Assembly (NCBI GenBank): GCA_019635715.1
Contig: JAHBYY010000050.1
Coordinates: forward strand, 1 to 34,346
Length of the DNA stretch: 34,346 nucleotides
Source of the DNA: Rhizobiaceae bacterium
GTDB lineage: Bacteria; Pseudomonadota; Alphaproteobacteria; Rhizobiales; Rhizobiaceae
Direction: 5' to 3'
In this document: positions 10,816 through 34,346 of the stretch, piece by piece
Layout: every line of letters begins with the position of its first letter
Numbering within the stretch: position 1 is the stretch's first letter
Position numbers and translations under genes: made by a program
Notes under the pieces: generated by a model
The model's database searches: none
The model's input: the letters and a program-made list of their open reading frames with translations, nothing else
Told to the model about the DNA's origin: nothing

Positions 10816-10826
10816 GAAAGAGCACC

Positions 10827-12065: not shown

Positions 12066-12074
12066 GGCATCCGC

Positions 12075-13436
12075 GTGACAAGCAGGCACATCCTCCTCAA
12101 CGCGTTCACCATGAACAGCGTGGGGCACATCAACCATGGCCTTTGGACCCACCCGCGCGACCGCTCCGGCGACTACACGCGGCTGGACTACTGGGCGGAG
12201 CTGGCAAGAACGCTGGAGCGCGGCCTGTTCGACGGTGTGTTTATCGCCGACATCATCGGCGTCTACGACGTCTATGGCGGCAGCGTGGACCTGACGCTGC
12301 GCGAGTCCATTCAGCTCCCGGTGAACGATCCGCTGCTCCTGGTGCCGGCCATGGCGGCGGTGACCAGACATCTCGGCTTCGGTGTGACCGCCAACATCAA
12401 TGCGGATCAGCCGGCCATCTTCGCACGGCGGCTATCCACTCTCGATCATCTGACCAACGGCCGGGTCGGCTGGAACATCGTCACCGGTTATCTGGATAGC
12501 GCCGCGCGGGCGCTTGGCCAGGCCGGGCTCGCGGCCCACGACAGCCGCTACGACCAGGCCGACGACTATCTCGACCTCGTCTACAAGCTGTGGGAAGGCA
12601 GTTGGGACGACGATGCTGTGGTGGCCGACAAAGCCCGTCGCTTCTATTCGGATCCGGCGAAGGTCCGCAGGGTCGTGCATGAGGGCCCGTTCTACCGGTC
12701 GGAGGCCTATCACCTCAGCGAGCCGTCGCCGCAGCGGACTCCCGTTCTCTATCAGGCGGGGACATCGGGGCGCGGGCAGCTTTTCGCGGCTCGGCATGCC
12801 GAATGCGTCTTCATCACCGCGACGGACAAGGCGAGCGCGCGCCGCCAATCGGATGCGCTCCGACGCGCCGCGCTGGATGCCGGGAGGCGCGCCGAGGATC
12901 TCAAGATCTTCGTCGGCGTCACCGTGGTCACCGATCGAACCGAAAAGGCGGCGCGCGAGAAGTTCGAGGACTATCGGCGGCATGCGAGCCCCGAAGCGGG
13001 CCTCGCCCATTTCTCGGCAAGCACCGGCATCGATTTCTCGCGCATCGGGCTGGACGATCCGATCGCTTATGGCGCCTCGAACGCCGTCCAGTCCACAACG
13101 AAACTGGCAAAGGACAAGGGCTGGACGAAACGTCAGATCCTGGCCGAACTCGCGATGGGCGGACGCTACCCGTTGATCGTCGGGGATGCCGCCCATGTGG
13201 CAGGCGAGTTGGAGTCCTGGATCGACGAGGCAGGTATCGATGGCTTCAACCTGACGCGGACGGTGGTTCCCGAGAGCTACGAGAACTTCATCGACATTGT
13301 CGTACCCGAACTGCAGGCCCGCGGCCGCTATAAGACCGCTTATGCCGAGGGCACGCTGCGCGAGCGGCTGTTCGGGGAAGCGGCCCGTCTGCCGACGCGT
13401 CACTATGGCAGCCGTTTCCGGCATCTACGGAACTAG
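12075..13436 (+). CDS. NtaA/DmoA-family FMNH2-dependent monooxygenase
   Basis: A 453-residue luciferase-like monooxygenase of the NtaA/SnaA/DszA/DmoA group, which includes nitrilotriacetate, dibenzothiophene-sulfone and dimethylsulfide monooxygenases. Recognisable parts are LLNAFTMNSVGHINHGLW at the start, VFIADIIGVYDVYGG, ARRLSTLDHLTNGRVGWNIV followed by TGYLDSAARA, QAGTSGRGQLFAARHAE, and DGFNLTRTVVPESYENFIDI near the end. These proteins cleave C-S or C-N bonds with FMNH2 supplied by a separate reductase. The start is GTG 12075, only 9 nt after sfnB copy 2, so it is the last gene of the metQNI-sfnB-sfnB unit. Genomic context favours an organosulfur substrate (a sulfone or thioether), but NTA-like or other substrates cannot be excluded. 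Confidence 0.88.
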   Translation: MTSRHILLNAFTMNSVGHINHGLWTHPRDRSGDYTRLDYWAELARTLERGLFDGVFIADIIGVYDVYGGSVDLTLRESIQLPVNDPLLLVPAMAAVTRHLGFGVTANINADQPAIFARRLSTLDHLTNGRVGWNIVTGYLDSAARALGQAGLAAHDSRYDQADDYLDLVYKLWEGSWDDDAVVADKARRFYSDPAKVRRVVHEGPFYRSEAYHLSEPSPQRTPVLYQAGTSGRGQLFAARHAECVFITATDKASARRQSDALRRAALDAGRRAEDLKIFVGVTVVTDRTEKAAREKFEDYRRHASPEAGLAHFSASTGIDFSRIGLDDPIAYGASNAVQSTTKLAKDKGWTKRQILAELAMGGRYPLIVGDAAHVAGELESWIDEAGIDGFNLTRTVVPESYENFIDIVVPELQARGRYKTAYAEGTLRERLFGEAARLPTRHYGSRFRHLRN

Positions 13437-13693
13437 CGGCGTTCGCGCGCCGCATCGATCCTCCGCGTTCGCGCAAGGCAGGAAATTCCGCACGTCTTCG
13501 AGCCCACGACGAGCAATCGCCTCGCCTTGAGCACGGATCTGCGCGTCTCCGTTTCTTACGATGCGCAGCGGTTCATGACACGCTCTGATGCAATCGCCGT
13601 AGTTGGCGAATTCGCGATGCGCTCGGCTCGAGGGATGCCTTGTTCCATGTGCGGGCCGCGACCGACCCGCCGCGATCCACCCGGGAGGTTCAT
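13437..13693 (-). other. Intergenic region with a possible unassigned minus-strand fragment
   Basis: The minus strand carries an open frame whose end (about 13425-13625) reads [20 protein letters not shown] and then ARRGLEDVRNFLPCANAEDRC. The four cysteines and protein-like composition make it look less random than the usual antisense frames, but I do not recognise a family. Its 5' part is the antisense of the carbonic anhydrase gene. It may be a gene relic or chance. Confidence 0.25.
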
Positions 13694-14296
13694 ATGACCG
13701 ACGCAGCCCGCTCCAAAGTGCATTCGGAGGTGCCCGATGCGAACGCGGCCTATGTCGCCGAGTTCGGCGACCGAAGGGATCTCGCGCTGCCGCCGGCACG
13801 CGGCTTCGCGATTCAAACATGCATGGATGCACGCCTCGACCCGGCCAAATATGCGGGGCTCGCGGAAGGCGACGCGCACGTCATCCGCAATGCTGGCGGT
13901 CGCGCCACCGACGATGGGATCCGCTCGCTCGTGATCTCCCACAAACTGCTCGGCACGCAGGAATGGTTCGTGATCCATCACACCAATTGCGGCATGGAGC
14001 TTTTCTCCGATGAGGTGATCGGCGACCTGCTCGCCGACAATCTCGAGACAGCCTCATTCGCCGGCAAGGCGTGGTCGAACCCCAGGCACGGACATGGGTC
14101 CGCGCATGGCCATTTCATCAAGTAGCACACATTCGCCGACAACGCCCGTAGCGTGGCTGAGGATGTCCGCCGCATTCGCGAGCATCCGCTCGTGACAGGC
14201 CATATCCCGATCTACGGCTATATCTACGATGTGCGCAGCGGACGACTGGACGAGGTGCCCGAGGCGACAAATGCCGGGTTGCCCAGGCCGGATTGA
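13694..14296 (+). pseudogene. Beta-carbonic anhydrase (CAB type) with an in-frame TAG at codon 144
   Basis: The frame begins at ATG 13694 with a GGGAGG ribosome site and encodes a small beta-class carbonic anhydrase. The zinc ligands are visible: Cys43 in CMDARLDP, and His96 and Cys99 in HHTNCGM, with the Asp45/Arg47 dyad. The frame stops at TAG (14123-14125). The same frame then continues with convincing homologous sequence ([17 protein letters not shown], then [14 protein letters not shown]) to a natural TGA at 14294-14296, giving a full length of about 200 residues. Relatives of this class usually have a Trp or similar residue at that position, so a single base change (TGG to TAG) would explain it. 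The truncated product keeps all zinc ligands but lacks the last helix and strand, so function is doubtful. Sequencing error is possible. Confidence 0.85.
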
Positions 14297-14341
14297 GATG
14301 TGGTGGGGCGCGACAAGCGGCGATTTTTTCTGAAAGTCGTC

Positions 14342-14409
14342 ATCAAACGAAACACTGCGTCCTTTAGTGCATTAAGTTGCTAGATATTATCTAATCAAAC
14401 GAAGGACGC
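14342..14409 (+). promoter_or_regulatory. msuE leader: direct repeats, AT-rich palindrome and RBS-sequestering inverted repeat
   Basis: Three overlapping structures precede the FMN reductase gene. ATCAAACGAA occurs twice (14342-14351 and 14394-14403). TAGATATTATCTA (14381-14393) is a perfect palindrome. GCGTCCTT (14357-14364) pairs perfectly with AAGGACGC (14402-14409), whose AAGGA is the probable ribosome site. The last arrangement could mask the ribosome site in an RNA hairpin, if transcription starts upstream of 14357. Confidence 0.5.
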
Positions 14410-14414
14410 TTTCA

Positions 14415-14978
14415 TTGTCGCAGCCCAAGGTCATTGCCGTCTCTGCCGGCGCAGCAGTTCCGTCTCGCACCACGGCGCTGGTGCAGGCGGCGACAGCTGC
14501 GGTGACGCAAGCGGTGGATGGGCAAGCCGAGTTGATCGAACTGTCTGAAGTCGCCCCTCTGATACTCACGGCAGCCTCCCGCGCAGATCTCGGTGCGGCC
14601 GGAGAGGCGCTCGTAAAGCGTATCGAAGCTGCCGACATTCTGGTCGTCGGCTCTCCGGTCTATCGCGCCTCCTACACCGGCCTGTTCAAGCATCTTTTCG
14701 ACCTCGTCGACCATCGCGCGCTTGCCGGCAGGCTCGTCCTGCTCACGGCAACCGGCGGCAGCCTGGAGCACAGTCTCGTGATCGAGCACCAGTTCAGACC
14801 TTTGTTCGGCTTCTTCGGTGCGGTGACGCTGCCGACGGGCCTCTATGCCCAGCCGAGCGACATCGTCGACGGCGCGATCGTCTCGTCGGCTCTCCAGGAG
14901 CGGGTCGGTCGTGCTGCCTCCGAGGCTTCCACCCTTTTCACCGGTCTGGCTCGGCGCCAGCCTCCTGCCAATGCCTGA
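14415..14978 (+). CDS. NADPH-dependent FMN reductase, MsuE/SsuE-like
   Basis: A 187-residue flavodoxin-fold FMN reductase of the SsuE/MsuE group, beginning at TTG 14415 with AAGGA 8 nt upstream. The N-terminal strand KVIAVSAGAAVPSRTTALV holds the phosphate-binding loop, and GSPVYRASYTGLFKHLFDLV is the hallmark of MsuE-type reductases. LVLLTATGGSLEHSLVIEHQF, followed by RPLFGFFGA, completes the pattern. It would reduce FMN with NAD(P)H and pass FMNH2 to the monooxygenase encoded next, SfnG (20-nt gap), and possibly to SsuD and the DmoA-like enzyme, none of which has its own adjacent reductase. In Pseudomonas msuE sits with the methanesulfonate genes msuCD. Confidence 0.88.
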   Translation: MSQPKVIAVSAGAAVPSRTTALVQAATAAVTQAVDGQAELIELSEVAPLILTAASRADLGAAGEALVKRIEAADILVVGSPVYRASYTGLFKHLFDLVDHRALAGRLVLLTATGGSLEHSLVIEHQFRPLFGFFGAVTLPTGLYAQPSDIVDGAIVSSALQERVGRAASEASTLFTGLARRQPPANA

Positions 14979-14998
14979 TCCCATCCAAAGGACCGACC

Positions 14999-16099
14999 AT
15001 GTCTTCTACGCAGGACGATATCAAATTCGCCTACTGGGTGCCGAATGTCTCGGGGGGCCTGGTCATTTCCAACATCGAACAGCGCACAGGCTGGGACATC
15101 GACTACAACCGCAAGCTCGCGCAGATCGCCGAAAAGGCGGGCTTCGACTATGCGCTGTCGCAGATCCGCTTCACGGCGGGCTACGGCGCCGACAACCAGC
15201 ACGAATCGGTCTCGTTCAGCCATGCGCTGCTCGCTGCCACGGAGACGCTGAAGGTGATCGCGGCGATCCTCCCCGGTCCGTGGAATCCGGCGCTTGCCGC
15301 CAAGCAGATCGCCACGATCAACCATCTCAGCAACGGGCGCGTGGCGGTCAACGTCGTGAGCGGCTGGTTCAGCGGTGAGTTCAAGGCCATCGGCGAACCC
15401 TGGCTCGACCATGACGAGCGCTATCGCCGCTCCGAAGAATTCATCCGGGCGCTGCGCGGCATCTGGACGGAGGACAGCTTCACCTTCGCCGGCGACTTCT
15501 ACCGCTTCCGCAATTACTCGCTCAAGCCGAAGCCGATCGATCCGCAGCCGGAAATCTTCCAGGGCGGCTCTTCGCGCGCCGCCCGGGACATGGCGGCACG
15601 GGTTTCCGACTGGTACTTCACCAACGGCAACACGCCCGAGGAAATCGCCAAGCAGGTCAACGACATCAAGGCGAAGGCCAAGACGAACAATCACGCGGTC
15701 AGGATCGGCGTAAATGCCTTCGCCATTGCACGTGAGACGGAAGAGGAGGCCAGGGCCGTCCTCGACGAAATCATCGCCAAGGCAAACCCGGACGCCGTGC
15801 ACGGCTTCGCCCACGAAGTGAAGAATGCCGGCAAGGCTTCTCCGGAAGGCGAAGGCAACTGGGCAAAATCGTCGTTCGAGGATCTGGTCCAGTACAATGA
15901 CGGCTTCCGCTCCAACCTGATCGGCACCCCGCACCAGATCGCCGAGCGAATCCTCAAGCTCAAGGACGCGGGCGCCAGCCTGATCCTGCTCGGCTTCCTG
16001 CACTTCCAGGAAGAGGTCGAGTATTTCGGCAAGCACGTCATCCCGCTGGTTCGGGAGCTCGAGGCCGAACGCCGCAACGCTTTGGTCGCCGCGGAATAG
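14999..16099 (+). CDS. sfnG: FMNH2-dependent dimethylsulfone monooxygenase SfnG
   Basis: A 366-residue luciferase-like monooxygenase that converts dimethylsulfone to methanesulfinate plus formaldehyde. Nearly every segment matches Pseudomonas SfnG: KFAYWVPNVSGGLVISNIEQ, DYNRKLAQIAEKAGFDYALS, ESVSFSHALLAATETLKVIA, EIFQGGSSRAARDMAA, EGEGNWAKSSFEDLVQYNDG and GFLHFQEEVEYFGKHV. AAAGGA before ATG 14999 is a good ribosome site. It follows the FMN reductase in one transcription unit, an arrangement that gives oxygenase and flavin supply together. A strong hairpin follows the stop codon. The methanesulfinate product would need further oxidation to methanesulfonate; SsuD-type or MsuD-type enzymes can then release sulfite. 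Confidence 0.93.
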   Translation: MSSTQDDIKFAYWVPNVSGGLVISNIEQRTGWDIDYNRKLAQIAEKAGFDYALSQIRFTAGYGADNQHESVSFSHALLAATETLKVIAAILPGPWNPALAAKQIATINHLSNGRVAVNVVSGWFSGEFKAIGEPWLDHDERYRRSEEFIRALRGIWTEDSFTFAGDFYRFRNYSLKPKPIDPQPEIFQGGSSRAARDMAARVSDWYFTNGNTPEEIAKQVNDIKAKAKTNNHAVRIGVNAFAIARETEEEARAVLDEIIAKANPDAVHGFAHEVKNAGKASPEGEGNWAKSSFEDLVQYNDGFRSNLIGTPHQIAERILKLKDAGASLILLGFLHFQEEVEYFGKHVIPLVRELEAERRNALVAAE

Positions 16100-20450: not shown

Positions 20451-21251
20451 ATGGCCGAAACAGCAGGCATTCTGAAGGTCGATCGCGTCGCCGCGGTCTA
20501 CGCCGGTGCGATCGCCGCCCTTCACGGCGTCGACCTGACGGTCGCGCCCGGCGAGATCGTCGCTTTGCTGGGCTCCAACGGGGCGGGCAAGTCGACCCTG
20601 CTCAAGGCGGTGTCCAATCTGCTGCCTGCCGAGCGCGGCGCCGTGACTGAGGGCCGCATCCTATTCGAGGGGCAGGATGTCGCGACGCTTGCCCCGGCAG
20701 CCCTCGCGCGTCGCGGGCTGGTGACTGTTCTCGAGGGCCGGCATTGCTTCCGCTCCCTCACTGTCGAGGAAAACCTGCTGACTGGCGCGCTTGGCCGGTC
20801 TTCCACACGCGCCGAGACGAAGGCCGATCTTGAGCGGGTCTACGCCCTCTTCCCCCGTCTGGCCGAGAAGCGACGCACGACGTCCGGCCTGATCTCCGGC
20901 GGCGAGCAGCAGATGACGGCGATCGGACGCGGGCTGATGTCGCGCCCGCGGCTGTTCGTCCTCGACGAACCGTCGATGGGTCTGGCACCGCTCGTGGTAC
21001 GCGAAATCTTCCTGACTCTGAAAAGGCTCAACCGCGAAGACGGCCTGTCGATCCTCGTCGCCGAACAGAACTCGGCGGTGGCGCTCGACTATGCCGACCG
21101 CGCCGTCGTCGTCGAGAACGGCGTGAGCAAGCTTTCCGGCCCGGCCGCCGAACTGCGGCAGCGCGCCGACATCAAGGATTTCTACCTCGGCGGCGAGACC
21201 ACTTCCATCCGCAACACCGATCCTGCCCCGAAAGAGGAGGCTTTTGCATGA
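20451..21251 (+). CDS. LivF-type ABC transporter ATP-binding protein
   Basis: A 266-residue ATPase, the second of the Liv-type importer. Walker A is GSNGAGKST (residues 41-49), the signature is ISGGEQQMTAIGRGL, typical of LivF, and Walker B is RLFVLDEPSMGLAP. VLEGRHCFRSLTVEENL corresponds to the Q-loop region (PEGRxxFxxLTVxENL in relatives). It overlaps the next gene by 4 nt (ATGA), linking the importer to an SfnB-type flavoprotein just as metI is linked to another copy. The 64-nt gap before it contains no obvious terminator. Confidence 0.9.
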   Translation: MAETAGILKVDRVAAVYAGAIAALHGVDLTVAPGEIVALLGSNGAGKSTLLKAVSNLLPAERGAVTEGRILFEGQDVATLAPAALARRGLVTVLEGRHCFRSLTVEENLLTGALGRSSTRAETKADLERVYALFPRLAEKRRTTSGLISGGEQQMTAIGRGLMSRPRLFVLDEPSMGLAPLVVREIFLTLKRLNREDGLSILVAEQNSAVALDYADRAVVVENGVSKLSGPAAELRQRADIKDFYLGGETTSIRNTDPAPKEEAFA

Positions 21252-23083: not shown

Positions 23084-23531
23084 AGGCAGGCGCCACGCCG
23101 TGTGATGCGATGTGTGTTTGCAGCCATTTCCGCGGCTGGCTATCGCGCCCGTCTTCGGCGTCTCGATCTTCCTAAAGCGCGTCGTGCTTAATCGGCCTCA
23201 TACCCTGCCGCCTTGAAGAAGTTTCGGCATTGGATAGGGTCGAACAGGTGGCAGATTTCGCCGAACGCGTTGCAGATGGCGTCGAAGGATCGTGCTGCGC
23301 GTTTTCGCAGCAAGGCCTTGAGCTTCGAGAACGCCAGATGGTGTCCCACGTCGTGGTGTAGCCGGGTAGCGAGGTGGTCACCCGCGCATCATCGCAATGT
23401 GGCTTTCCCCTTGCCCGGAAACGAAGTCCGCGGAGTTCGGAAATGCGTCGGCCTGCGATCTCGCAGCGGCGCTGAAAGGTGACCATTTGCTCCGGCGGCG
23501 CGCCCACATCCAAATCCCTGACCGAAGAGGA
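23084..23531. other. Gene-poor junction between the sulfur region and the defence island
   Basis: This 448-nt stretch contains only an IS630-type transposase tail (23188-23345, minus). The rest (23346-23531) has a minus-strand open frame with protein-like sequence (GAPPEQMVTFQRRCEIAGRR) that I cannot assign. No terminator was recognised for either flanking operon. Confidence 0.6.
23188..23345 (-). pseudogene. IS630-family transposase C-terminal remnant
   Basis: On the minus strand, a frame ending at TAA (23188-23190) reads LAFSKLKALLRKRAARSFD, then HLFDPIQCRNFFKAAGYEAD. That is the standard C-terminus of IS630-type transposases (FSKLKALLR, then an NYF-like/AGY ending). Homology begins abruptly near 23345 and the DDE core is absent, so only a scar remains. 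CTAAAGCGCGTCGTGCTTAA next to the stop may be part of the right terminal repeat. It marks the edge between the sulfur-scavenging genes and the Druantia operon. Confidence 0.75.
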
Positions 23532-26500
23532 TCACAGCATCCGTCCGGTCGTTGAAGCGCGACCCCATCTTGCGACAGCGGCGAGCACGTCGGTCACGCT
23601 CTCCAGGGCGGCATGGCGATCCAGCAGGTCCTGCTGGGCGTGAAGATCGGCCACGAGGATGCAGTGCGAGCATCCTTTGACGCAGTTGCGCGGGCAATCG
23701 AGAATTCTTGCGGCGTGCGTCAGCAGGTCCTGAACGTCGTCCAGAAGCCGCGGCGCATATCCGGCGCCTCCCGCATTGAGATCGAACAGGAAGATCGAGT
23801 GGGTGCGGCGGCCGATCGCGTCATGTCGCGGACTGACGGCAAGCCCGAGCTCCCGGACATCGACGGCCAAACGCCTCGCCAGGGCCGTTCGGAGCGCCGA
23901 GGCCAGCGCCCAGGCCGCCTCTACGCCGTCCAGGCCCGTAAGCTGCAACTCGGCCACGTCGGTCAGCGCTTCGAAACCCAGCGCCAGCGGATTGGTGATC
24001 GCATAGGTCCTGTCATTGCCGTCGCAGCGGCCGGCCTGACCCTTCTGCGGCGTCAGCGCCGCGTGCCCGGCCAGATTGCCCTCGCTCTCCTCGGCGGCAC
24101 GGCCGCAGCGCAGGCAGACATTGTAGCCCCGTTTGCGGATGCCGAGGGAGTGATGAAAGACAAGCCCGTCGGCGGTTGCGCGGGCGCGACCGACGGAAGG
24201 ATCGCGCAGCGGCACCCAGCCTGCGTCACGCGCGGAAATGCGCACTGGCTGCGGCTCGATATAGTCGATCCTGTCGGTTTCGCCGTGCGGCTTCTCGCTC
24301 CAGTCGACCCGGAAGCCGGCCGGCTGCAGGAACTGAAGCCCGTCGAGCGCGCTCGAATCGCAGGCTGTGCACCGATGCGGCCGCAGAACGCCGCAATCGA
24401 CCTCGCCGCAGTCGCGGCATTGCCATGACCACTTGATGCTCTGGACTTCACGTGCCGCCGCATCGTGCGCCGGCCGCTCCCAGTTCAGCGTGACGCCCGC
24501 AGAGGTCCAGACAAGCCCGTCGATGACCACCTGGCCGCCCGGCGCGTACTCCCGGATGGCGACATCGGCCTTGCGGCTGGGATAGTCGTAGCGCCGGTTG
24601 CGCACCGTCTCGCTTTCTTCGTCGAAACGCAGCTTCTGGCGCGCCGCCGTCTCGGCGCAGTCGTTGATGAACGGCACCACGGCGTTTGGGAAGCCGTGTC
24701 CCGGCAGCAGCGAGCGCGCCGAAAGCTCCTTGAGCAGCGGTTCCCGGCACAGCCTGCGAAGCTGGTTCTCGATGCTGCCCTTCGCTTCCGGCGTCAGGCC
24801 GGCGGCCTGATCGCGAAGGTTGTTCCACTGGTCGCGATAGGCCTTCCGGGCTTCGTCGAAACCCGTGGAGCAGTTCTCCGGCACATTGTCGACGTCATGC
24901 AGCGCGGTGCCGTCCAGCAGGGCCCTGAGCCGCGCCGCCATATCCGCAGCCGTGCTCGGATCGTTCAGCCAGGCGCAAAACCGGTCGACCGGCGGGTTCT
25001 CCTCTCCGGCAAGCGACAAGCCTTCCGGGCATCCGAAGAAGGAACCCGACCTGACGCGCATCAGCTCTGCCTGCGATTGACGAAACCACTCCCCGAGAAG
25101 AAGCGCGTTGGCGTGACGCTGGACGATGCGGCGGGAGTCCAGCCTGACCTGCGGCGCGCACATCGAGCTGCGCAGATAGGCTGCCGGATCGGTGAAGGCC
25201 TCACGGTCCAGCGGCGTGTCTCTCGCGAAGGTGAGCGAGGAAGAGAAGCTCTGACCGCGGCGTCCGGCGCGCCCGACGCGCTGCCGGTAGTTGGCGATCG
25301 ACGGCGGGACATTGGTGTTCAGCACCGCTTCGACCGAACCGATGTCGACACCCATTTCCATGGTCGTGGAGCAGGCCAGCAGATTGATTTCCCCCTGCTT
25401 GAACTGGGCCTCGAAGGCGCGCAGCCGATGCGGCTGCTGCTGCGCGGAGTGTTCCTCGGCGCGCATGTAGGATGCGTAGGTCGCCGCGCGGTCGTGCAGG
25501 TCGGTCCATATGCCCCGCGACCGCAGGCTCCTGACGACCGGGTCGGTCTGGATGAACCCTTCCAGTTCGGCACGCTCGCCGGCCAGGGGAAAGGCGATCG
25601 GCAATCTCGGAAAGTTCGCGGCCGCCGGCGCGGGCCGGTCGCCGGAGGGCGCGAGCCGCAGAGCATAGGGCGTCTGTCCGAACACCAGGCGGGGGAGCAC
25701 CCTGTGCGTGATCGGGCAGATCCAGGCTTCCGCGACTGGGCCGAGATGGGCCTTTTCGATATCGAGCGCGTAGGTCGATCCGGTCCCTTCGAACACCGGG
25801 CGCAACTGGTCCCAGGCGTCCTGCAGAATCGCGTTGAGGATGCCGCGATCCTCGCCGCTGCCGCTGTCCAGAGCCAGGCTCTGCTCCAGCGCCAGGACGG
25901 GGTTTGCCTGCCGGCCAGCTCCCGCACGGGCCAGCGGCCAGACCATGTCCGACTCGCTGCGCCTGTCCTGGCCGGGTCCGACGATCGTCCTCAGAAATGC
26001 GTGTCGCGGCAGCAGCCAGCGGGCGTCCTCGCGGCTGACGTTGAGCACGAAATTGCTGCGGACCAGGTCGATGAGAAAGTACAGATAGTCGGTCCAGTGC
26101 GCTTTCGCGAAGCCGCGTTCCCGCAGCGGGCGCGGCACGCGGTCGTCCGCGATGTTGTCGATTTGCGGAAAGACCAGCCTTGCCAGGCCGAGCGTCTCCA
26201 GCGCATTGGCGCGGCGCGGACGCCGGGCGAGCTCGCGCAGGATCAGGAAATTGGCCAGTATCCCGGGGTCGCGGAACCGCTCGTCGCGGTCGGCGTCCCA
26301 GACATTGCCGATCCATCGGCTGAGCATCGGCTCGTCGGACAGCGCCTTGACCATGTGGGACCACGGAACGGGCTTGACGGTGCCGGTTCCGCGCAGTTGG
26401 TCCTCGATCGTGCGCAGGCGATCGCCCAGACTCGGAATGCTGCCGGCATGCGGGGCGATGACGGCCCGCTCCGCTTCCAGTTCCGAGCGCTTCGCCGCGT

Positions 26501-28472
26501 CCAGGCTCTCCGGCCTCGCCGCCTTCTGCACCGAATGATAGACGAAGCTGCGCACAAAGCTGCGCTCGGACATCGTCTCGATATTGGCGGCGAAACGCGC
26601 GGTGCCCTGCCGGCTGTCGGTGAACGAGATCAGTTGCCGGCCCTGCGACGGAAGCTCGATGTCGGAGCGGGGGCTCGGCGAAACGCCTTCGAGCACGGTC
26701 GGCGCCGCGTTCTGGATCAGGAATGGGGCACCGAAGCGAAACGGCCACAGGATCCGCGACGACCGCCGCGAGGGCTTGGCATGGCAGCACGGACAGGAGC
26801 CGTCGCACATCTTTGGGCTGAGTTGCACGGATGTCGCCGCGCCGCGGCGGTCGGGCAAGGCACCGCTGGTCAGGTCGAGATCTCGCTGAACGAGTCCGTT
26901 CGCCGGCCTCGAGCCGATCAAGCGCCGCTTGCATTCCTGCGAGACGGCCGTGGCGCCGTCTTCCTCGTCATCGTCGCCGCCCTCGTCGCGTTCGCGCGCG
27001 CTCGTCGCCTCGAACTCGTCGCGGTCGGGCGGCGCGGCCTCGGGCGAAAGCCGGTCGCCGTGATCGAAGGCGTTGAGCAGCGGCTCGCCGCATTCGCGGC
27101 AACTGATCACTTCGAAGACCGGTGCGCCGCAGGATGTGCAGATTTCGCTCCGCTCGAAATGGATCGGCCCGAACGGCCAGCCTTCGGGTCTGTCGCCCTT
27201 GCAGGCCGGATTGAGGCATGACCACAACCCGGGAACCGCCCTGATGAACTTGTGGACGCGCATCGGCAGGACCGACCCCGCGACGGCCTCAAGGAAGGGA
27301 ATCGCCGGCGCGCCGGCCTGCCTGGCCGCCGCTTCGACGCGCGCCATGGGGACGGCTCCGCGTTCAAGCTCTCCGACCAGCGCATGGACCGCGGGATGGC
27401 AGCTCACCGCATCGGGACGATCGAGATCGATCGGGCCGGACCGGTCCCGACGCGGGCCAAGCGTCACCGGCCTGGGCTTGCCGATGACGACATGAACCTG
27501 ATCGATCGGCACACCGGCGAGATCGGCCAGGTAGCGCTGGAGATTGCCCCGGTCGGCTTCGCTGCCGTCGCCGATCGTCGCCGAGGTCGCCACGAACCGC
27601 ACGTCGCGCGCCTTGACGCCGAAGGCCTGCAGGACACGGCGCAGCAGCAGCGAGAGTTCCGCCGCGGCGGATCCGACATAGCTGTGCGCCTCGTCGATGA
27701 CGATCCAGCGGAGCTGTCCCTGGGATGCCTGGAGGATCGGATGGTCCTCCTTGCGGATGGTCATGTACTCCAGCATGGTCAGGTTGGTGACGAGCACCGG
27801 CGGCGGATCGGAGCGCAGCGTGCCGCGGTAGAGCACCTGCTCGGGAACGTCCTGCTCGGCCTTGTCGCGTTCGCTCTTGCGCTTGTCCAGCATCAGCCCG
27901 TTGTAGAGCGCGAAGCGGATCTTTCCGCGGAACGGCGCGACCCAGCGGCGCAGCCTTTCCTCCTGGCTGGCGATGAGCGCGTTGAGGGGATAGAGCATCA
28001 GCGCGCGCACGCCGCGCAGCCGGCCGGCGCTTTCCGCCTCGCGCACCAGATCGTCGAGCATCGGCACCATGAAGCACTCGGTCTTGCCGGAGCCGGTGCC
28101 GCTGGAGACCAGCACCGACCTGCGTTCCTTCAGCAGTTGCTCCCAGGCCTCGAGCTGATGGGCGAAGGCCGGATAGTCGAAGCGATGATCGTCGCCCGCC
28201 CTGCCGATCAGCGCGTCGACAAGGGCGGGATGCAGGAGCGAGCCGCGCAGCGCGCCGGGCGACAGGCCGGACGAGACGTAGCCCGGCGCCCCCTCGACCA
28301 CCGGCTCGGCGAACAGGGCGCCTTCGCGGGCGTCGCTGCCGGACAGCCTGGCGCGAAGGAATGCATTCAGAGCGTCGTGGCGTATTCCCGCCTGGGCGAT
28401 GACCGCCGCTGTGACTCGCTGGCGAAGCTGCCGGTCGACGGCAAGCGGGTTCGAGATCGTCAAGGTCCTCAC
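23532..28472 (-). CDS. druE: Druantia type III protein DruE: large DEAH helicase with C-terminal DUF1998-like domain
   Basis: About 1646 residues from GTG 28472, which overlaps the upstream stop (GTGA); TTG 28463, with GGAGG 8 nt away, is an alternative. Further upstream codons overlap druH and are rejected. Superfamily 2 helicase motifs: Walker A SSGTGSGKTE (residues 123-132), DEAH (260-263), VATSATI (294-300), and in the second RecA domain a CSTTMEMGVDIGSVEAVLN segment with motif VI QRVGRAGRRGQ (1064-1074). Cysteine pairs near 420-460 (CTSCGAPVFEVISCREC) and 1348-1370 (CRDCGEVDCG and CTAC) suggest zinc ribbons. A C-terminal cluster CPRNCVKGCSHC around 1592-1605 is the DUF1998/MrfA-type motif. 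A giant helicase with DUF1998 is the core of Druantia; pairing with a 1.1-kresidue protein fits type III. DISARM or Dpd helicases are less likely, because DISARM normally splits these domains. Confidence 0.8.
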   Translation of the reverse strand: MRTLTISNPLAVDRQLRQRVTAAVIAQAGIRHDALNAFLRARLSGSDAREGALFAEPVVEGAPGYVSSGLSPGALRGSLLHPALVDALIGRAGDDHRFDYPAFAHQLEAWEQLLKERRSVLVSSGTGSGKTECFMVPMLDDLVREAESAGRLRGVRALMLYPLNALIASQEERLRRWVAPFRGKIRFALYNGLMLDKRKSERDKAEQDVPEQVLYRGTLRSDPPPVLVTNLTMLEYMTIRKEDHPILQASQGQLRWIVIDEAHSYVGSAAAELSLLLRRVLQAFGVKARDVRFVATSATIGDGSEADRGNLQRYLADLAGVPIDQVHVVIGKPRPVTLGPRRDRSGPIDLDRPDAVSCHPAVHALVGELERGAVPMARVEAAARQAGAPAIPFLEAVAGSVLPMRVHKFIRAVPGLWSCLNPACKGDRPEGWPFGPIHFERSEICTSCGAPVFEVISCRECGEPLLNAFDHGDRLSPEAAPPDRDEFEATSARERDEGGDDDEEDGATAVSQECKRRLIGSRPANGLVQRDLDLTSGALPDRRGAATSVQLSPKMCDGSCPCCHAKPSRRSSRILWPFRFGAPFLIQNAAPTVLEGVSPSPRSDIELPSQGRQLISFTDSRQGTARFAANIETMSERSFVRSFVYHSVQKAARPESLDAAKRSELEAERAVIAPHAGSIPSLGDRLRTIEDQLRGTGTVKPVPWSHMVKALSDEPMLSRWIGNVWDADRDERFRDPGILANFLILRELARRPRRANALETLGLARLVFPQIDNIADDRVPRPLRERGFAKAHWTDYLYFLIDLVRSNFVLNVSREDARWLLPRHAFLRTIVGPGQDRRSESDMVWPLARAGAGRQANPVLALEQSLALDSGSGEDRGILNAILQDAWDQLRPVFEGTGSTYALDIEKAHLGPVAEAWICPITHRVLPRLVFGQTPYALRLAPSGDRPAPAAANFPRLPIAFPLAGERAELEGFIQTDPVVRSLRSRGIWTDLHDRAATYASYMRAEEHSAQQQPHRLRAFEAQFKQGEINLLACSTTMEMGVDIGSVEAVLNTNVPPSIANYRQRVGRAGRRGQSFSSSLTFARDTPLDREAFTDPAAYLRSSMCAPQVRLDSRRIVQRHANALLLGEWFRQSQAELMRVRSGSFFGCPEGLSLAGEENPPVDRFCAWLNDPSTAADMAARLRALLDGTALHDVDNVPENCSTGFDEARKAYRDQWNNLRDQAAGLTPEAKGSIENQLRRLCREPLLKELSARSLLPGHGFPNAVVPFINDCAETAARQKLRFDEESETVRNRRYDYPSRKADVAIREYAPGGQVVIDGLVWTSAGVTLNWERPAHDAAAREVQSIKWSWQCRDCGEVDCGVLRPHRCTACDSSALDGLQFLQPAGFRVDWSEKPHGETDRIDYIEPQPVRISARDAGWVPLRDPSVGRARATADGLVFHHSLGIRKRGYNVCLRCGRAAEESEGNLAGHAALTPQKGQAGRCDGNDRTYAITNPLALGFEALTDVAELQLTGLDGVEAAWALASALRTALARRLAVDVRELGLAVSPRHDAIGRRTHSIFLFDLNAGGAGYAPRLLDDVQDLLTHAARILDCPRNCVKGCSHCILVADLHAQQDLLDRHAALESVTDVLAAVARWGRASTTGRML

Positions 28473-31400
28473 CTCCGCGCCTGATCCGAGAAGGCCGCGG
28501 CGAACCCGTCGCAAAACCACTTCGGGTGCCGTCGGCTGATGGTCTTCACGCAGATCACCTGCGCGGGGCTGAGCGTGACGCGCTCGCGGGCGGCACGTGC
28601 GGCGGCCACCGGTGCGTCGAGCGCACGCCAATAGCGCTCCGGGACGTTCCATGCCGGCAGCGCATTGGCGAGCGCGGGGCGGAAGGGGCTCGGGTCCGGG
28701 TCGATCCGCCCGTCGGCGCGGGTGACGAAGTCGTTGGCGGCATCCTTGAGCGCCGCGCAGGGGGCGGTGAACCCCAGGACAGGCCCGAGGGCCGGAAGGT
28801 CGGTCGCTATCCGCCGGATCCGCTGGCTGATGATCGGCATGATATAGTCCTCGCCGTTGGGCACCAGGCGAAGCAGGTGCTGCATCTCCTGGCGCCCGGC
28901 CTCATCCCACGCGGCGGCGGGCAACATCTCCCACGCAAAGGGAAGACCGTCGCTGAGCCGGTAAAGCTTGGGCAACTGTTCCTCTCCGACCTGGAACAGC
29001 ATGCGTGTCGCAAGGCGCGGCCTGCTCGAAACCAGTGTCAGGACATCGAAGGTCGAAGACGGAAGGCCGTCGAGCGACAGCGCGATTTCGATCACGGATT
29101 GAACGAAAGCGCGGCATTCCGTGGCCGGCGCGGCCAGCATCTCGTCGCAAATCCGGCCGAGCTGTTCCAGCCGCGCGGTGCGGTCCGCGACCATCATGGC
29201 CTGTGCAAACGGCGTATCCGCCCCCTCCGGCGGCAGGTGGCCCTTGACGACGAGCGGCGTGCTCAGGATGCGCCCGCCGGTTCGCAGATAGACGAGCCAT
29301 TCTCCCGCCAAAGGCGGCAGCACGATGGGCGCCGGCATTTCGCCGTCGGTACGCTCATACGGGCCGAGATCCACTTCGCAGGCCGGCCTGCCCAGCGACC
29401 GGCCGGCTATCCGGACATGCGCGTCGTTCGGGACGCGATCCGGAGCCCAGTGCTGCGAGCGCTGCGACAACCGGCATTCGTAGGGCCTGAGGAACCAGAC
29501 GTCGATCGAGCCATGGGTGAAGCCCAGCCTGACCTTCGCTCCGAGGTCGCCCAGCCCATGCAGAAGTGCTGCAAGATCGTCGGCGATCGTCGAAAGCGGC
29601 AGCTCGTCTTCGAACTGCCAATAGGCCACCGCGCCCGGTACCGCCCGGTCCTGATGATCGAGCAGGACGGCGGTGAGCTCTTCCCTTCCGTCCGCCGTGG
29701 CGACGAAGCGGTTGATCTCGGAGTGCGACAGGCTCTCGCGGTTCGGCAGCGGGCCGCCGCTCCAGGTGGCGATCCATGGCGGGTGCGGAAGGGGTATATC
29801 AAGCTCGCACGCCCGGCCGAAGCCGTCCGTCAACCGGGCGCGCGCCGTCGACCGGGCGATGTCCTTCCTGTCGAGCTGCCAGATGCCGCGATCGACATGG
29901 CGTCCCGCATCGAGGCGAACCTCTCCGTCCCAACCCGCGACCGACAGTTCGGTCAGGGTCTCGGTGCGCCGCCGGGCGACGCGAAACTGCTCAGGCAGGA
30001 TGATGGCATCCCGCCGGTCGCGCACATGATGGGTGGCAGGATCGAGCCAGGCGAACTCGAACGGTCCGTGGCCTGTTCGCCGCTGGGCCGGCTGCCAGCG
30101 GTTCTCGCCCGGCCGGCGCCACCAGATTTCCTGAATTGCCGTCCATTCCCGCGATCCTCGCCTCAGCCTGAAGTCCGGCTCCCCGACGATCAGCATCTGG
30201 TCGGGATCGACGGCGCGGAAGCCGGAAGGCGTCTGCCCGGCCAAGACGAGTTCGTCGCGCAGGTCTCCCTTCTGCCCGCCGCGCACAAGATATCTGTCCT
30301 GGCGGGGCGAGGTGACGATCGCCGCGCCCTGCACCAGCCACAGCGCACGCCGCTCGTCGGGCAGTCCTGCGATCCTTGCGCAGCGTGAGCCGAGGTCCGA
30401 CGCCGCACAGTGCCATTCCCGCGGTGCATCGATGTACAGGCGGTCGGGAGAATAGGCTCGGCTGCCGGTGCCGATCAGTCTCAGCGTCCGCGGGACCTCG
30501 CCAGGGGCATCGTCGATGGCCTCGTAGATCCTCAGATCGCCGGGCAGGCGCTCGCCTCCCGGCAGGACGAACGGATTGCCGACCCGGCTCCCGCCGCCGC
30601 GCATCTCCAGCGAGATCGCGACATGCGACGGAACGTCGTATCGGATGCGGGCGGCCGTCGGCCGGCAGAGCCAGCGTCCGTCGCTGTCCGGGTCGGCGAC
30701 CGCGAGCTCGCCCGACACATGACGCGCCAGCGCCTCTGACGCATACAGGCGGAGCCTGTTCCAGTCGCCGAGAAGGCCGGCGAGCACCGGGCTGCCGCCG
30801 GCGTCCTGAATGCTGCCGCTCAACTGGAGTTCGACCATTTCGCGGCGCGCGCCGCCTGGACCCAGAAGAAGCAGCCGTCTCGCCCTGATGGATGCCGCCG
30901 GTCTCGCGGCCTCGGCGAGGAAAAGGCCGTCGATCAGGGCCTTTCCGGCGGCGCTGCCGATCGACACCGGCAGGTCGTTGCGCCAGTCCCGGTAAGTCTC
31001 GTCGAGCCAGAGGGATACGAGCGAACCGGACGGTACTCCGGCCCGTTCGGCGTTCCGCCGGAGCAAAACGATCTGGACCGCGAGTTCACCCGAAACGAGG
31101 CGGATTTCCTTGCTCCTCCACGTCTGGGGAACCAGGTGGAGGAGGTCTTCGCACACGGTGTCGGCGATGTCGGCCGTGCAGGTTTCCCGCGACAGCAGCA
31201 CCGAGACGACCCGCTCGAGAAACGCCTTCGCCCAGCCGCTCGCGGAGCCTTCAAGCGCCGCGACGGGAAATCCGCCCTGGCGGGCGATGGCGGCCAGCCG
31301 ATGATGCGTCCCGTTCACCTTCAGCGGCGCGATGCGCCAGTAGCGCAACCCGTCGTCCGCCAGGCGACGCCAATCCGCCTGAGGCATGGTCAGACCGACA

Positions 31401-31792
31401 GGCTGGCCGAGGTCGGACCAGTTTCGTTGCGTTCCGTCGTAGTGGCGCCTGAACCACTCCGACGCCCAGAGCACGAACTTGCCTGCGAGCGCTCCGGTCG
31501 CGGGACCGGCCAGCATCGCGCGTTTGCCGCGAAGCTCGGACCGCAGGGCGCCGAAAGCGTCGTCCGACAGCCGGTAAAGATAGAGGGCTCTCCCGTCGAC
31601 CGCAGGGAGATCGTATTCGGACAGCCAGCCATCTTGCCCGGATTGCTTGCCGTCGACGAGCTTTCTGCGGCGGACGATCGCCTTCAACAGCAACAGCCGG
31701 TGCTCCGGCCGGCCTTGCAACTCGGCTATGACCGCATCCAACGCGCCGATACTTGCTCCCGCCGCGTCCAGGCGTGCCGCGTAATCTCCCAC
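28469..31792 (-). CDS. druH: Druantia type III protein DruH (large protein of unknown fold)
   Basis: A 1107-residue protein starting at GTG 31792, 15 nt after an in-frame TAG, with AGGA about 10 nt upstream. I see no catalytic motif, transmembrane helix or signal peptide. The sequence is rich in short beta-strand-like, Arg/Trp-rich stretches in the middle (for example EIWWRRPGENRWQPA, EFAWLDPATHHVRDRRD), suggesting beta-sandwich modules, with a more helical C-terminus. The identification rests on context and size: Druantia type III consists of druH and druE only, and here a protein of this size is coupled to the helicase by a 4-nt overlap. The biochemical role of DruH is not known. If this is not DruH, it is an uncharacterised helicase partner. 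Confidence 0.65.
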   Translation of the reverse strand: MGDYAARLDAAGASIGALDAVIAELQGRPEHRLLLLKAIVRRRKLVDGKQSGQDGWLSEYDLPAVDGRALYLYRLSDDAFGALRSELRGKRAMLAGPATGALAGKFVLWASEWFRRHYDGTQRNWSDLGQPVGLTMPQADWRRLADDGLRYWRIAPLKVNGTHHRLAAIARQGGFPVAALEGSASGWAKAFLERVVSVLLSRETCTADIADTVCEDLLHLVPQTWRSKEIRLVSGELAVQIVLLRRNAERAGVPSGSLVSLWLDETYRDWRNDLPVSIGSAAGKALIDGLFLAEAARPAASIRARRLLLLGPGGARREMVELQLSGSIQDAGGSPVLAGLLGDWNRLRLYASEALARHVSGELAVADPDSDGRWLCRPTAARIRYDVPSHVAISLEMRGGGSRVGNPFVLPGGERLPGDLRIYEAIDDAPGEVPRTLRLIGTGSRAYSPDRLYIDAPREWHCAASDLGSRCARIAGLPDERRALWLVQGAAIVTSPRQDRYLVRGGQKGDLRDELVLAGQTPSGFRAVDPDQMLIVGEPDFRLRRGSREWTAIQEIWWRRPGENRWQPAQRRTGHGPFEFAWLDPATHHVRDRRDAIILPEQFRVARRRTETLTELSVAGWDGEVRLDAGRHVDRGIWQLDRKDIARSTARARLTDGFGRACELDIPLPHPPWIATWSGGPLPNRESLSHSEINRFVATADGREELTAVLLDHQDRAVPGAVAYWQFEDELPLSTIADDLAALLHGLGDLGAKVRLGFTHGSIDVWFLRPYECRLSQRSQHWAPDRVPNDAHVRIAGRSLGRPACEVDLGPYERTDGEMPAPIVLPPLAGEWLVYLRTGGRILSTPLVVKGHLPPEGADTPFAQAMMVADRTARLEQLGRICDEMLAAPATECRAFVQSVIEIALSLDGLPSSTFDVLTLVSSRPRLATRMLFQVGEEQLPKLYRLSDGLPFAWEMLPAAAWDEAGRQEMQHLLRLVPNGEDYIMPIISQRIRRIATDLPALGPVLGFTAPCAALKDAANDFVTRADGRIDPDPSPFRPALANALPAWNVPERYWRALDAPVAAARAARERVTLSPAQVICVKTISRRHPKWFCDGFAAAFSDQARR

Positions 31793-32029: not shown

Positions 32030-32057
32030 AGATCGACCCCGCGTGGGCGGGGGAGCC
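32030..32057 (-). repeat. Degenerate terminal CRISPR repeat
   Basis: Compared with the consensus it lacks the T of CGATCCCC (reads CGACCCC) and has AGA in place of GGG before TCGA. It is thus 28 nt with a damaged handle region; the GC stem half and the GGGGGAGCC end are intact. Terminal decay of this sort marks the oldest, leader-distal end. Confidence 0.85.
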
Positions 32058-34346
32058 TGATCTCGTATTCGGCGTCCGACACCGGGACCAGGTCGATCCC
32101 CGCGTGGGCGGGGGAGCCGACAGCGCGTCCTGGACGATGGCGCCGGGCGGGGGTCGATCCCCGCGTGGGCGGGGGAGCCCGCTCCTACTACGAGAGAGAC
32201 CCGGCCAAATGGGGTCGATCCCCGCGTGGGCGGGGGAGCCTCGAACCGCAGGCCGTCGGAGATGCCGTAGCGGGGTCGATCCCCGCGTGGGCGGGGGAGC
32301 CCCTCCGGCCGCCCGAAAGGGCCGGGTGCGACGGGGTCGATCCCCGCGTGGGCGGGGGAGCCTCGATACGCGACAGGTGCGAGGTGCCGATCGTGGGTCG
32401 ATCCCCGCGTGGGCGGGGGAGCCATCCAGGCGGCGATGGCCGGCATGGCGGCGCTGGGTCGATCCCCGCGTGGGCGGGGGAGCCCCCTGGCTCCACACGC
32501 CGTCGGACGAGGTGAACGGTCGATCCCCGCGTGGGCGGGGGAGCCTGTCCAAATCCAGCAGAAAGGAGGCCTGGGACAGGTCGATCCCCGCGTGGGCGGG
32601 GGAGCCCGATGTCTTCAACGGTGCGATGAGCATCCCGAGGGTCGATCCCCGCGTGGGCGGGGGAGCCGTCCGGCTAAAGAGCGGCGGGGTCGTGGAGCCG
32701 GGTCGATCCCCGCGTGGGCGGGGGAGCCCCAGCGTGGCGGCGATCTGCGGCGTCGAATGGGGGTCGATCCCCGCGTGGGCGGGGGAGCCTTCAGCGCGCG
32801 CCCGACCAGCTTGGCGATCTGGGGTCGATCCCCGCGTGGGCGGGGGAGCCCGCAGCGCGTCGAACGGGTCAGCCTCGGCGCTGGGTCGATCCCCGCGTGG
32901 GCGGGGGAGCCGCCGATCCGGCCCCGGAGGGTACGAGCCAAGCGGGTCGATCCCCGCGTGGGCGGGGGAGCCCCGATTTCCTGCCTCATGTCGACCATTA
33001 CGCCGGGTCGATCCCCGCGTGGGCGGGGGAGCCTGCCGCCGCTCCCTTGTCAGGGCGGGCCACACGGGTCGATCCCCGCGTGGGCGGGGGAGCCATGGCT
33101 GCGACCGGGACGGACATCCTCGACGGCGGTCGATCCCCGCGTGGGCGGGGGAGCCCGCAGCACCTGCTCCTCGACCTGCTTGACCTGGGGTCGATCCCCG
33201 CGTGGGCGGGGGAGCCGACCATGCCGACCCAGCCGCGATGCTCCAGCCGGGTCGATCCCCGCGTGGGCGGGGGAGCCCTTTGGGCTGGGATGCTAACCGG
33301 GAGGATATGGGGTCGATCCCCGCGTGGGCGGGGGAGCCCCATCACATAGATGCCGTCGACGACTTCAATGGGGTCGATCCCCGCGTGGGCGGGGGAGCCC
33401 CACATCGCTCCCCTTGTCAGGATCGAACTCGGGGTCGATCCCCGCGTGGGCGGGGGAGCCGATCGCTACACGACCGAGGTCGTGATCAAGCAGGGTCGAT
33501 CCCCGCGTGGGCGGGGGAGCCCCAGGCGCCTGGTCGACGATGTAGCAGAACCAGGGTCGATCCCCGCGTGGGCGGGGGAGCCTATGCAGGCGCAAAGGCC
33601 GCGATCCGATCGCGGGGTCGATCCCCGCGTGGGCGGGGGAGCCGTCCCGTCGAGCGTCGTGATGTGGGTGAAGGCGGGTCGATCCCCGCGTGGGCGGGGG
33701 AGCCCCTCTGGCCCAGAAAGAGGCGAAGCTAGACGCGGGTCGATCCCCGCGTGGGCGGGGGAGCCCGGGCTGCTTTACAAGACCCTATGTAAAGACAGGG
33801 TCGATCCCCGCGTGGGCGGGGGAGCCACCATCTTCACCAGGTCGACGTAGCTCACCTGGGGTCGATCCCCGCGTGGGCGGGGGAGCCACGAGATGGTCGG
33901 CGTACCGTCGAGCATTCCGGGGTCGATCCCCGCGTGGGCGGGGGAGCCGCCTTCGCCACGCGCGGCCACTACGGCACGACGGGTCGATCCCCGCGTGGGC
34001 GGGGGAGCCCCCGTCAGGAGCGATGATGTCCCATCCGGCATGGGTCGATCCCCGCGTGGGCGGGGGAGCCGCTTCCGGCTCCCACTCGCGGGGAGGGAGG
34101 GCGGGTCGATCCCCGCGTGGGCGGGGGAGCCTCGACCACGGCCTTCAAGCGCTATGCGGGAGGGGGTCGATCCCCGCGTGGGCGGGGGAGCCATCGCGCT
34201 GGAGCGCATCGGCGAAATCCTGCAGGGTCGATCCCCGCGTGGGCGGGGGAGCCGCGATCGTTCGCAACGAGACGAAAGAGGAGAGGGGTCGATCCCCGCG
34301 TGGGCGGGGGAGCCCCCGGCCTGGTCGACCTCGGCCGTCGGGGTCA
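32030..34346 (-). CRISPR. CRISPR array, type I-E-like repeat, at least 38 repeats, continuing past the window
   Basis: Thirty-eight repeats end at 32057 and every 61 nt thereafter up to 34314, with every spacer 32 nt. By eye repeats 2-38 share one invariant 28-mer that begins GGTCGATCCCCGCG and ends TGGGCGGGGGAGCC on the plus strand. The base before it is variable, which makes a 29-nt unit. Read on the minus strand the repeat has the layout of type I-E repeats: a GC stem CCCCCGC...GCGGGG followed by an 8-nt handle ATCGACCC, comparable to the ATAAACCG handle of E. coli. The left-most repeat (32030-32057) is degenerate, so this is the trailer end and transcription runs leftwards from a leader beyond 34346. 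No cas gene lies in the window. The last 32 nt (34315-34346) form a complete spacer, so the array continues. Confidence 0.97.

Follow-up and report, generated by a model that had tools for sequence, protein, structure and literature searches.

The locus described here raises the question of what becomes of a two-gene anti-phage operon when its large helicase appears to have lost the nuclease that its closest relatives carry. The window, i.e., the whole stretch of DNA that was analysed, is one complete contig (C98 of genome G000; 34,346 bp) of a draft assembly of 4.57 Mb in 151 contigs with a completeness of 85%. It carries druH followed by druE on the same strand, and the two frames (3.3 and 4.9 kb, respectively) are intact and open, sharing a 4-nt overlap GTGA within ...GGAGGTGAGG... 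(Table 1). The earlier note on this DNA had described a protein of 1107 and one of 1646 residues encoded with such an overlap, and both reading frames were found as described. An upstream ATG in the druE frame would give the longest reading with 1706 codons. However, the GTG start of the 1646-codon reading is supported, since the DruE matches of the closest relatives start between residues 1 and 8 of that reading. A simple scan upstream of druH returned no promoter-like site.

Table 1. Features of the window (34,346 bp), with positions counted from its first nucleotide.
Feature	Position	Strand	Description
druH	28469-31792	minus	1107 aa, GTG start; YjiT/DruH family, candidate phage sensor
druE	23532-28472	minus	1646 aa, GTG start; YprA-like SF2 helicase without C-terminal PLD module
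DEAD/DEAH helicase domain, DruE residues 105-301	27570-28160	minus	Pfam PF00270, 77.8 bits; Walker A K130, DEAH D260/E261
Helicase_C domain, DruE residues 1008-1073	25254-25451	minus	Pfam PF00271, 47.6 bits
MrfA Zn-binding (MZB) domain, DruE residues 1523-1605	23658-23906	minus	Pfam PF09369, 40.6 bits, cut-off 24.2
Decayed, frame-shifted remnant of the PLD module 3' end (putative)	23393-23577	minus	two pieces in two frames: 23577-23488 and 23518-23393
CRISPR array, trailer part, type I-E	32030-34346	minus (direction inferred from the cas-side contig)	38 repeats, 61-nt period

Both products were classified with profile models, and Druantia type III was taken as the PADLOC models define it, namely druH plus druE. 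The druE product matched DruE3 (PDLC00037) with 1782.8 bits over profile positions 11-1676 of 2055, compared with 511.6, 340.1, and 301.5 bits for DruE1, DruE2, and DruE4, respectively. The druH product matched DruH3 (PDLC00040) with 614.1 bits over residues 3-1103 of 1107 and, additionally, the NCBIfam family YjiT_fam with 286.1 bits (cut-off 150). In a sequence search of solved structures, window DruE was aligned to PDB 9tu7 (2108 aa) with an E-value of 5.5e-245 over chain residues 17-1719, and a profile of 32 DruH proteins, with that of the window placed first, matched PDB 9tud, named DruH, with 7.2e-212. Such scores lie well outside what chance would give. Since Druantia III models are the best match of either protein over almost its full length, the operon belongs, by its profile matches, to Druantia type III, a known two-gene anti-phage kind. 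The PADLOC check that the earlier note had proposed thus returned DruE3 and DruH3 as the best models and upheld its call of a druH-druE operon, while its reservation that the partner gene was the less firmly assigned one is removed by the full-length DruH3 match and the YjiT_fam match.

The helicase portion of DruE is well preserved. Three Pfam families above their cut-offs (PF00270, PF00271, and PF09369) agree with the previous description of a giant DEAH helicase with SF2 motifs and a DUF1998-like C-terminus; PF09369 (MZB) is the domain called DUF1998 in PMC13316683. The protein stops 41 residues past this Zn domain. The zinc-ribbon-type cysteines noticed earlier recur as pairs that are invariant in a six-protein DruE alignment, including C445/C448, C458/C461, C560/C563, C1352/C1355, C1453/C1456, and C1601/C1604. 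The Walker A lysine and the D and E of the DEAH motif were identical in all 79 aligned DruE proteins. In the same alignment, the comparison covered 16 positions assigned by PMC13192584 to the ATP site, the DNA path or, for R1258, the PLD pocket. Thirteen of them are identical in the window (E. coli numbering: G118, S119, K121, N156, R165, R207, N221, Y227, R231, D251, E252, R1135, and R1139), and the other three, V92, R1258, and E1343 of E. coli, are replaced by P, N, and A in window DruE and are variable across the family. Furthermore, R1372 is identical, and N596 and R914 are not; little effect is reported for the latter two in the available text of PMC13192584. Judged by these residues, the helicase motifs of window DruE are intact.

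The residue comparisons with E. coli were made via a plasmid copy (L014), with a DruH of 1119 aa and a DruE of 2104 aa; its numbering agrees with the residues taken from PMC13192584 except for K97, which is Q. In this copy, R1258 lies upstream of the Zn domain in the sequence, and the position is R in only 15 of the 79 proteins and hence not conserved. The published account describes R1258 as part of the active PLD pocket (PMC13192584); perhaps the residue was misnumbered in print, or it contacts the pocket from a different domain.

For DruH, an alignment of 71 proteins contained 26 columns conserved to at least 85%. In these, glycine, proline, tryptophan, and leucine prevail, and D, E, H, and K do not occur. 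The residue nearest to a conserved acid was D264, with at least 90% in the 32-protein set and 56 of 71 in the larger set. The ATP-pocket positions of E. coli DruH (N672, Y733, D735, R1064, and K1067) are T, T, G, R, and R in the window, so that R1064 is shared, and these columns vary over the 71 proteins and do not define the family. A family-wide nuclease site is not apparent from the alignment, and a nuclease in DruH seems doubtful because the E. coli ATP-pocket residues vary across the family. In the predicted DruH model (pLDDT 84.5), a beta-rich part lies between two helical ones, in agreement with the published description. Fold searches with this model returned repeated Ig-like and other beta domains whose TM-scores, normalised by query length, did not exceed 0.10 in the 50 matches listed for each search; such generic matches would fit the published Ig-like description and prove nothing. 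The published J-like baseplate similarity of DruH was not reproduced in the fold searches of the model.

The peculiarity of the locus lies at the end of druE. Window DruE is without the C-terminal PLD-type nuclease module of approximately 370 residues and thus without the two C-terminal PLD domains of the canonical E. coli type of helicase-nuclease. Among distinct related loci whose druE is not cut off at its end (84), an extension of more than 200 residues was found in 79 and was absent in five, the window included; within the six-protein alignment (A1), all five relatives carry the module. The DruE of Aureimonas leprariae, an open frame of 2023 codons, has it as well. The model of the Aureimonas tail (pLDDT 91.6) gave Foldseek and VIA lists headed by PLD-superfamily proteins, and on this model the extension looks PLD-like. 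From profile positions, the size of the loss was estimated at about 310 residues, i.e., roughly 0.93 kb. The absence of the module rests on alignments, because Pfam also misses it in intact tails: no family was found in any of three module-bearing tails (Aureimonas, E. coli, and Methylocystis). A missing Pfam PLD match was accordingly discarded as a sign of nuclease loss. The earlier guess of a divergent variant holds only with regard to this module, which the sister protein has and whose loss the earlier note had not noticed.

A search of four genomes of the genus, the window's own included, yielded no relative sharing this deletion. A short druE next to a full-length druH was also present in three further loci, namely L032 (Thiospirillum), L035 (a Rhodothermales MAG), and L040 (a gammaproteobacterial MAG). 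In these, DruE ends right after the Zn domain, and their positions on the DruE tree point to separate losses of the module; a tail-profile search near their druE ends found no remnant. Two other loci showed different states. In Sphingobium indicum (L020), druE (9896-14614 of that locus) ends at query residue 1559 and a close relative (L073) carries the full extension, which by sequence is a recent disruption. In Stutzerimonas (L053), DruE (9554-15709) has an extension of just 248 residues whose second PLD half is without the conserved histidine, perhaps a partial module loss.

In the window itself, a remnant of the module appears to have persisted over the last codons and the stop of druE and beyond, corresponding to the last ~65 codons of the module (~185 nt). 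A profile of 77 tails (80 minus L017, L055, and L091) was run on 3904 six-frame segments drawn from the window and from the other four loci with a short druE, and it matched two pieces at hmm positions 312-341 and 334-377, on the correct strand and in the correct order but in different frames. In this single search, both matches were weak (E 0.77 and 0.37, respectively, short of the usual thresholds), and an L020 segment that looks like a chance match came between the two in rank, so that the case for a remnant rests on order, place, and strand. In a test on 231 nt, the two pieces scored 8.0 and 7.3 bits, respectively; the sum of 15.3 bits, obtained with a chaining rule that had been relaxed with the data in view, was reached by none of 2000 dinucleotide shuffles (maximum 8.6) and by none of the 576 further segments of the window that gave a hit (maximum 4.7). 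Under the first chaining rule, one piece of 8.0 bits was kept, which one of 2000 shuffles and none of 583 segments reached. Tail-only alignments at the DNA level to five relatives were weak: that to L021 beat all 93 control segments and the other four did not. The pieces read CRKMGSRFNDRTDAVILFGQGFGCGRAAGA and ...WSPFSAAARSQADAFPNSADFVSGQGESHIAMMRG; the first aligns to HGRKLTIGYSDGSAAIVLFDQGFGYWR of Aureimonas, with the invariant histidine and aspartate gone, and a G occupies the position of a D that is invariant in 39 of 39 tails. Because a decayed, frame-shifted module end remains at the druE stop, the loss looks like a deletion.

Of the readings considered, we lean towards a Druantia III operon in which DruE lost the PLD nuclease by deletion and was kept as a nuclease-free helicase. 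The decay of the remnant compared with 8.2 kb of open frame suggests that both genes have been under selection since the loss: within ~185 nt, the remnant has acquired a frameshift and a changed invariant D, and both druE and druH are open. However, the frameshift could have been made by the deletion itself, which would weaken this argument on timing, and the evidence for retention comes from one genome that is 85% complete and in 151 contigs.

The most serious competitor, which retains a substantial but smaller share of our confidence, is a dying Druantia III, in which the effector nuclease was deleted and the defence lost, with the remainder not yet decayed. In E. coli, defence reportedly depends on cleavage by DruE as well as on the C-terminal surface through which DruE assembles (PMC13192584), and by analogy the loss of the PLD module could simply kill the system. 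Recent disruption of druE also occurs, as seen for Sphingobium indicum in comparison with L073. On the other hand, the remnant has diverged and shifted its frame, yet 8.2 kb of both genes are open; at one indel per ~185 nt, tens of indels would be predicted over this length. Moreover, the short druE of L032, L035, and L040 has an open frame, the adjacent druH is of full length, and no remnant was detected near the druE end. Weighing these points, a working nuclease-free Druantia III appears somewhat likelier than a dying one.

We regard it as improbable that an assembly error produced the deletion and that the gene is in reality complete, in an ordinary Druantia III operon. The draft state of the genome, with its 151 contigs and 85% completeness, would allow for such an error, but the site lies inside a 34-kb contig and not at a contig end, and a wrong join alone would account neither for the second frame shift in the remnant nor for its replaced invariant residue. 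A different YprA-helicase system (DISARM, Dpd, or ARMADA) can practically be dismissed, as the weak shared helicase matches of window DruE (83.7 bits for DpdJ, the best Dpd model, and 42.3 bits for DrmA, the best shown for DISARM) are far outweighed by the 1782.8 bits of DruE3 and a dedicated DruH partner with 614.1 bits, so that neither the better Dpd or DISARM match nor the partner unlike DruH that the earlier note had named as counter-evidence was found. All three systems were rejected on profile scores, with the PADLOC version used (2.0.0, 2023) predating the description of ARMADA and holding no ARMADA-specific model. PADLOC scans of 20 other reading frames of the window showed no partner of DISARM or Dpd: at E 0.001, 17 of the frames had no match, two had matches of the ATPase type only, and one had a weak match to an oxidoreductase (24.9 bits). 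The frame at 20451-21251, covered by Pfam alone, is an ABC ATPase.

On its upstream side, the operon adjoins a type I-E CRISPR array, and the interval given in the earlier note (23532-31792) ends just before it. The array, with at least 38 repeats, runs off the contig end; 237 bp separate its last repeat from druH, and the repeat copy closest to druH differs from the others. When the 28-mer repeat was searched with up to two mismatches, one further copy was found in the genome outside the window contig, right at the terminus of contig C124 (L102), where a type I-E cas operon is followed by an AT-rich stretch and then the repeat copy. Cse1, Cse2, Cas7, Cas5, Cas1, and Cas2 of this contig scored above the cut-off and Cas6e just below (41.1 vs 45.2 bits). 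Whole-genome searches for Cse1 (PF09481) and Cas1 (PF01867) had come back empty, which would have pointed to an orphan array; given the cas operon on C124, both results were false negatives. We infer that the window contig and C124 are linked through the array, in which case cas genes, array, druH, and druE would all point in the same direction. With the whole array as one query, blastn (E 0.1) found no match in 50,697 phage records. By a scan for exact regular repeats, an array was present in one of 88 loci examined, namely the window, so that a CRISPR neighbour is not common in the family in this sample; none was found in the 24.9-kb Aureimonas leprariae locus either. On the other side of the operon (222-23083), genes for transport and flavin-dependent oxidation lie in a run, comprising an NlpA-type lipoprotein, an ABC ATPase, luciferase-like monooxygenases, an acyl-CoA-dehydrogenase-like protein, and a flavin reductase (six checked by Pfam). 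The role of this cluster presumably resembles organosulfur use. Flanking synteny within the genus was uninformative.

The operon is rare among the genomes sampled. The window DruH as query matched in one of 397 genomes of the order, its own, and the DruH3 model in four of 385 genomes of the class, again including its own. Among the three other genomes of the genus, one has a DruE found with the window protein, 45% identical and with an open frame of 2089 codons. This sporadic occurrence in the order, class, and genus samples makes horizontal acquisition probable.

If the nuclease-free helicase still functions, DruH would recognise a phage structural protein, and DruH and DruE together may act on the incoming or replicating phage genome. 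DruE would load on exposed 3' single-stranded DNA, translocate, and unwind with ATP, and could thereby block circularisation or replication of the phage DNA; any cutting would be left to DruH or to host nucleases. By analogy, such a mode would resemble what has been reported for M. smegmatis, with its short DruE, more than the cutting described for the E. coli pair. A further-reaching view is that a helicase-nuclease evolved into a still-defending pair of nuclease-free helicase and sensor, that the PLD module is dispensable and repeatedly lost, and that the pair may work with CRISPR-Cas or host nucleases doing the cutting; we consider this tentative and rather unlikely as a whole. Two differing accounts of Druantia III exist: in E. 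coli, DruE is reported to cut (PMC13192584), and in M. smegmatis, a pair with a short DruE is reported to block phage DNA circularisation (PMC13316683). Aureimonas with the module kept and the window with the module lost would form a clean natural pair for asking what the nuclease adds. Apart from the nuclease loss, the locus is an ordinary defence operon.

Among known systems, the druHE locus of Aureimonas leprariae (L019) is the closest, being the sister in the DruE tree with a local support of 99. DruE is 63% identical over 1630 aligned residues and DruH 44%, and the Aureimonas DruE has the PLD module whereas that of the window does not. Druantia III of E. coli (PDB 9tu7 and 9tud) shares with the window the gene order, the touching genes, the SF2 motifs, and the Zn domain, and differs at the residues listed above for both proteins. 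In the available text of PMC13192584, E. coli DruH is described as a likely sensor with dimerisation-dependent nuclease activity and DruE as a helicase-nuclease, for which mutants of the ATP site, the C-terminal assembly surface, and cleavage lose defence and R1258A and R2075A abolish it.

The M. smegmatis pair, as far as the available text of PMC13316683 describes it, consists of a DruH of 1132 aa, toxic alone and neutralised by DruE, and a DruE of 1667 aa, and protects by stopping phage DNA circularisation and replication. DEAD, Helicase_C, and DUF1998 are the domains named for this DruE, which is too short for the PLD module. Similarities to the window are the near-equal protein sizes, the same named DruE domains, and overlapping genes, with an overlap of 17 bp in M. 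smegmatis compared with 4 nt in the window. The short DruE of the M. smegmatis type, with ~1.65 kaa and an end after DUF1998, is thus also seen in the window, the likeness being drawn from sizes and named domains. Because the sister carries the module, the window seemingly reached this layout by secondary loss; among 44 plasmid records found, none held a full-length Actinobacterial DruE. A Druantia III-like branch is described, in the available text of PMC12458937, as most frequently without a nuclease domain, as is the window, whose nearest relatives, however, carry the PLD module. The nuclease-less DruE architecture itself is therefore not new, having been published already (PMC12458937, PMC13316683, as far as their available text goes). 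What is new here is the apparent natural loss of an effector nuclease, with what looks like its scar still visible.
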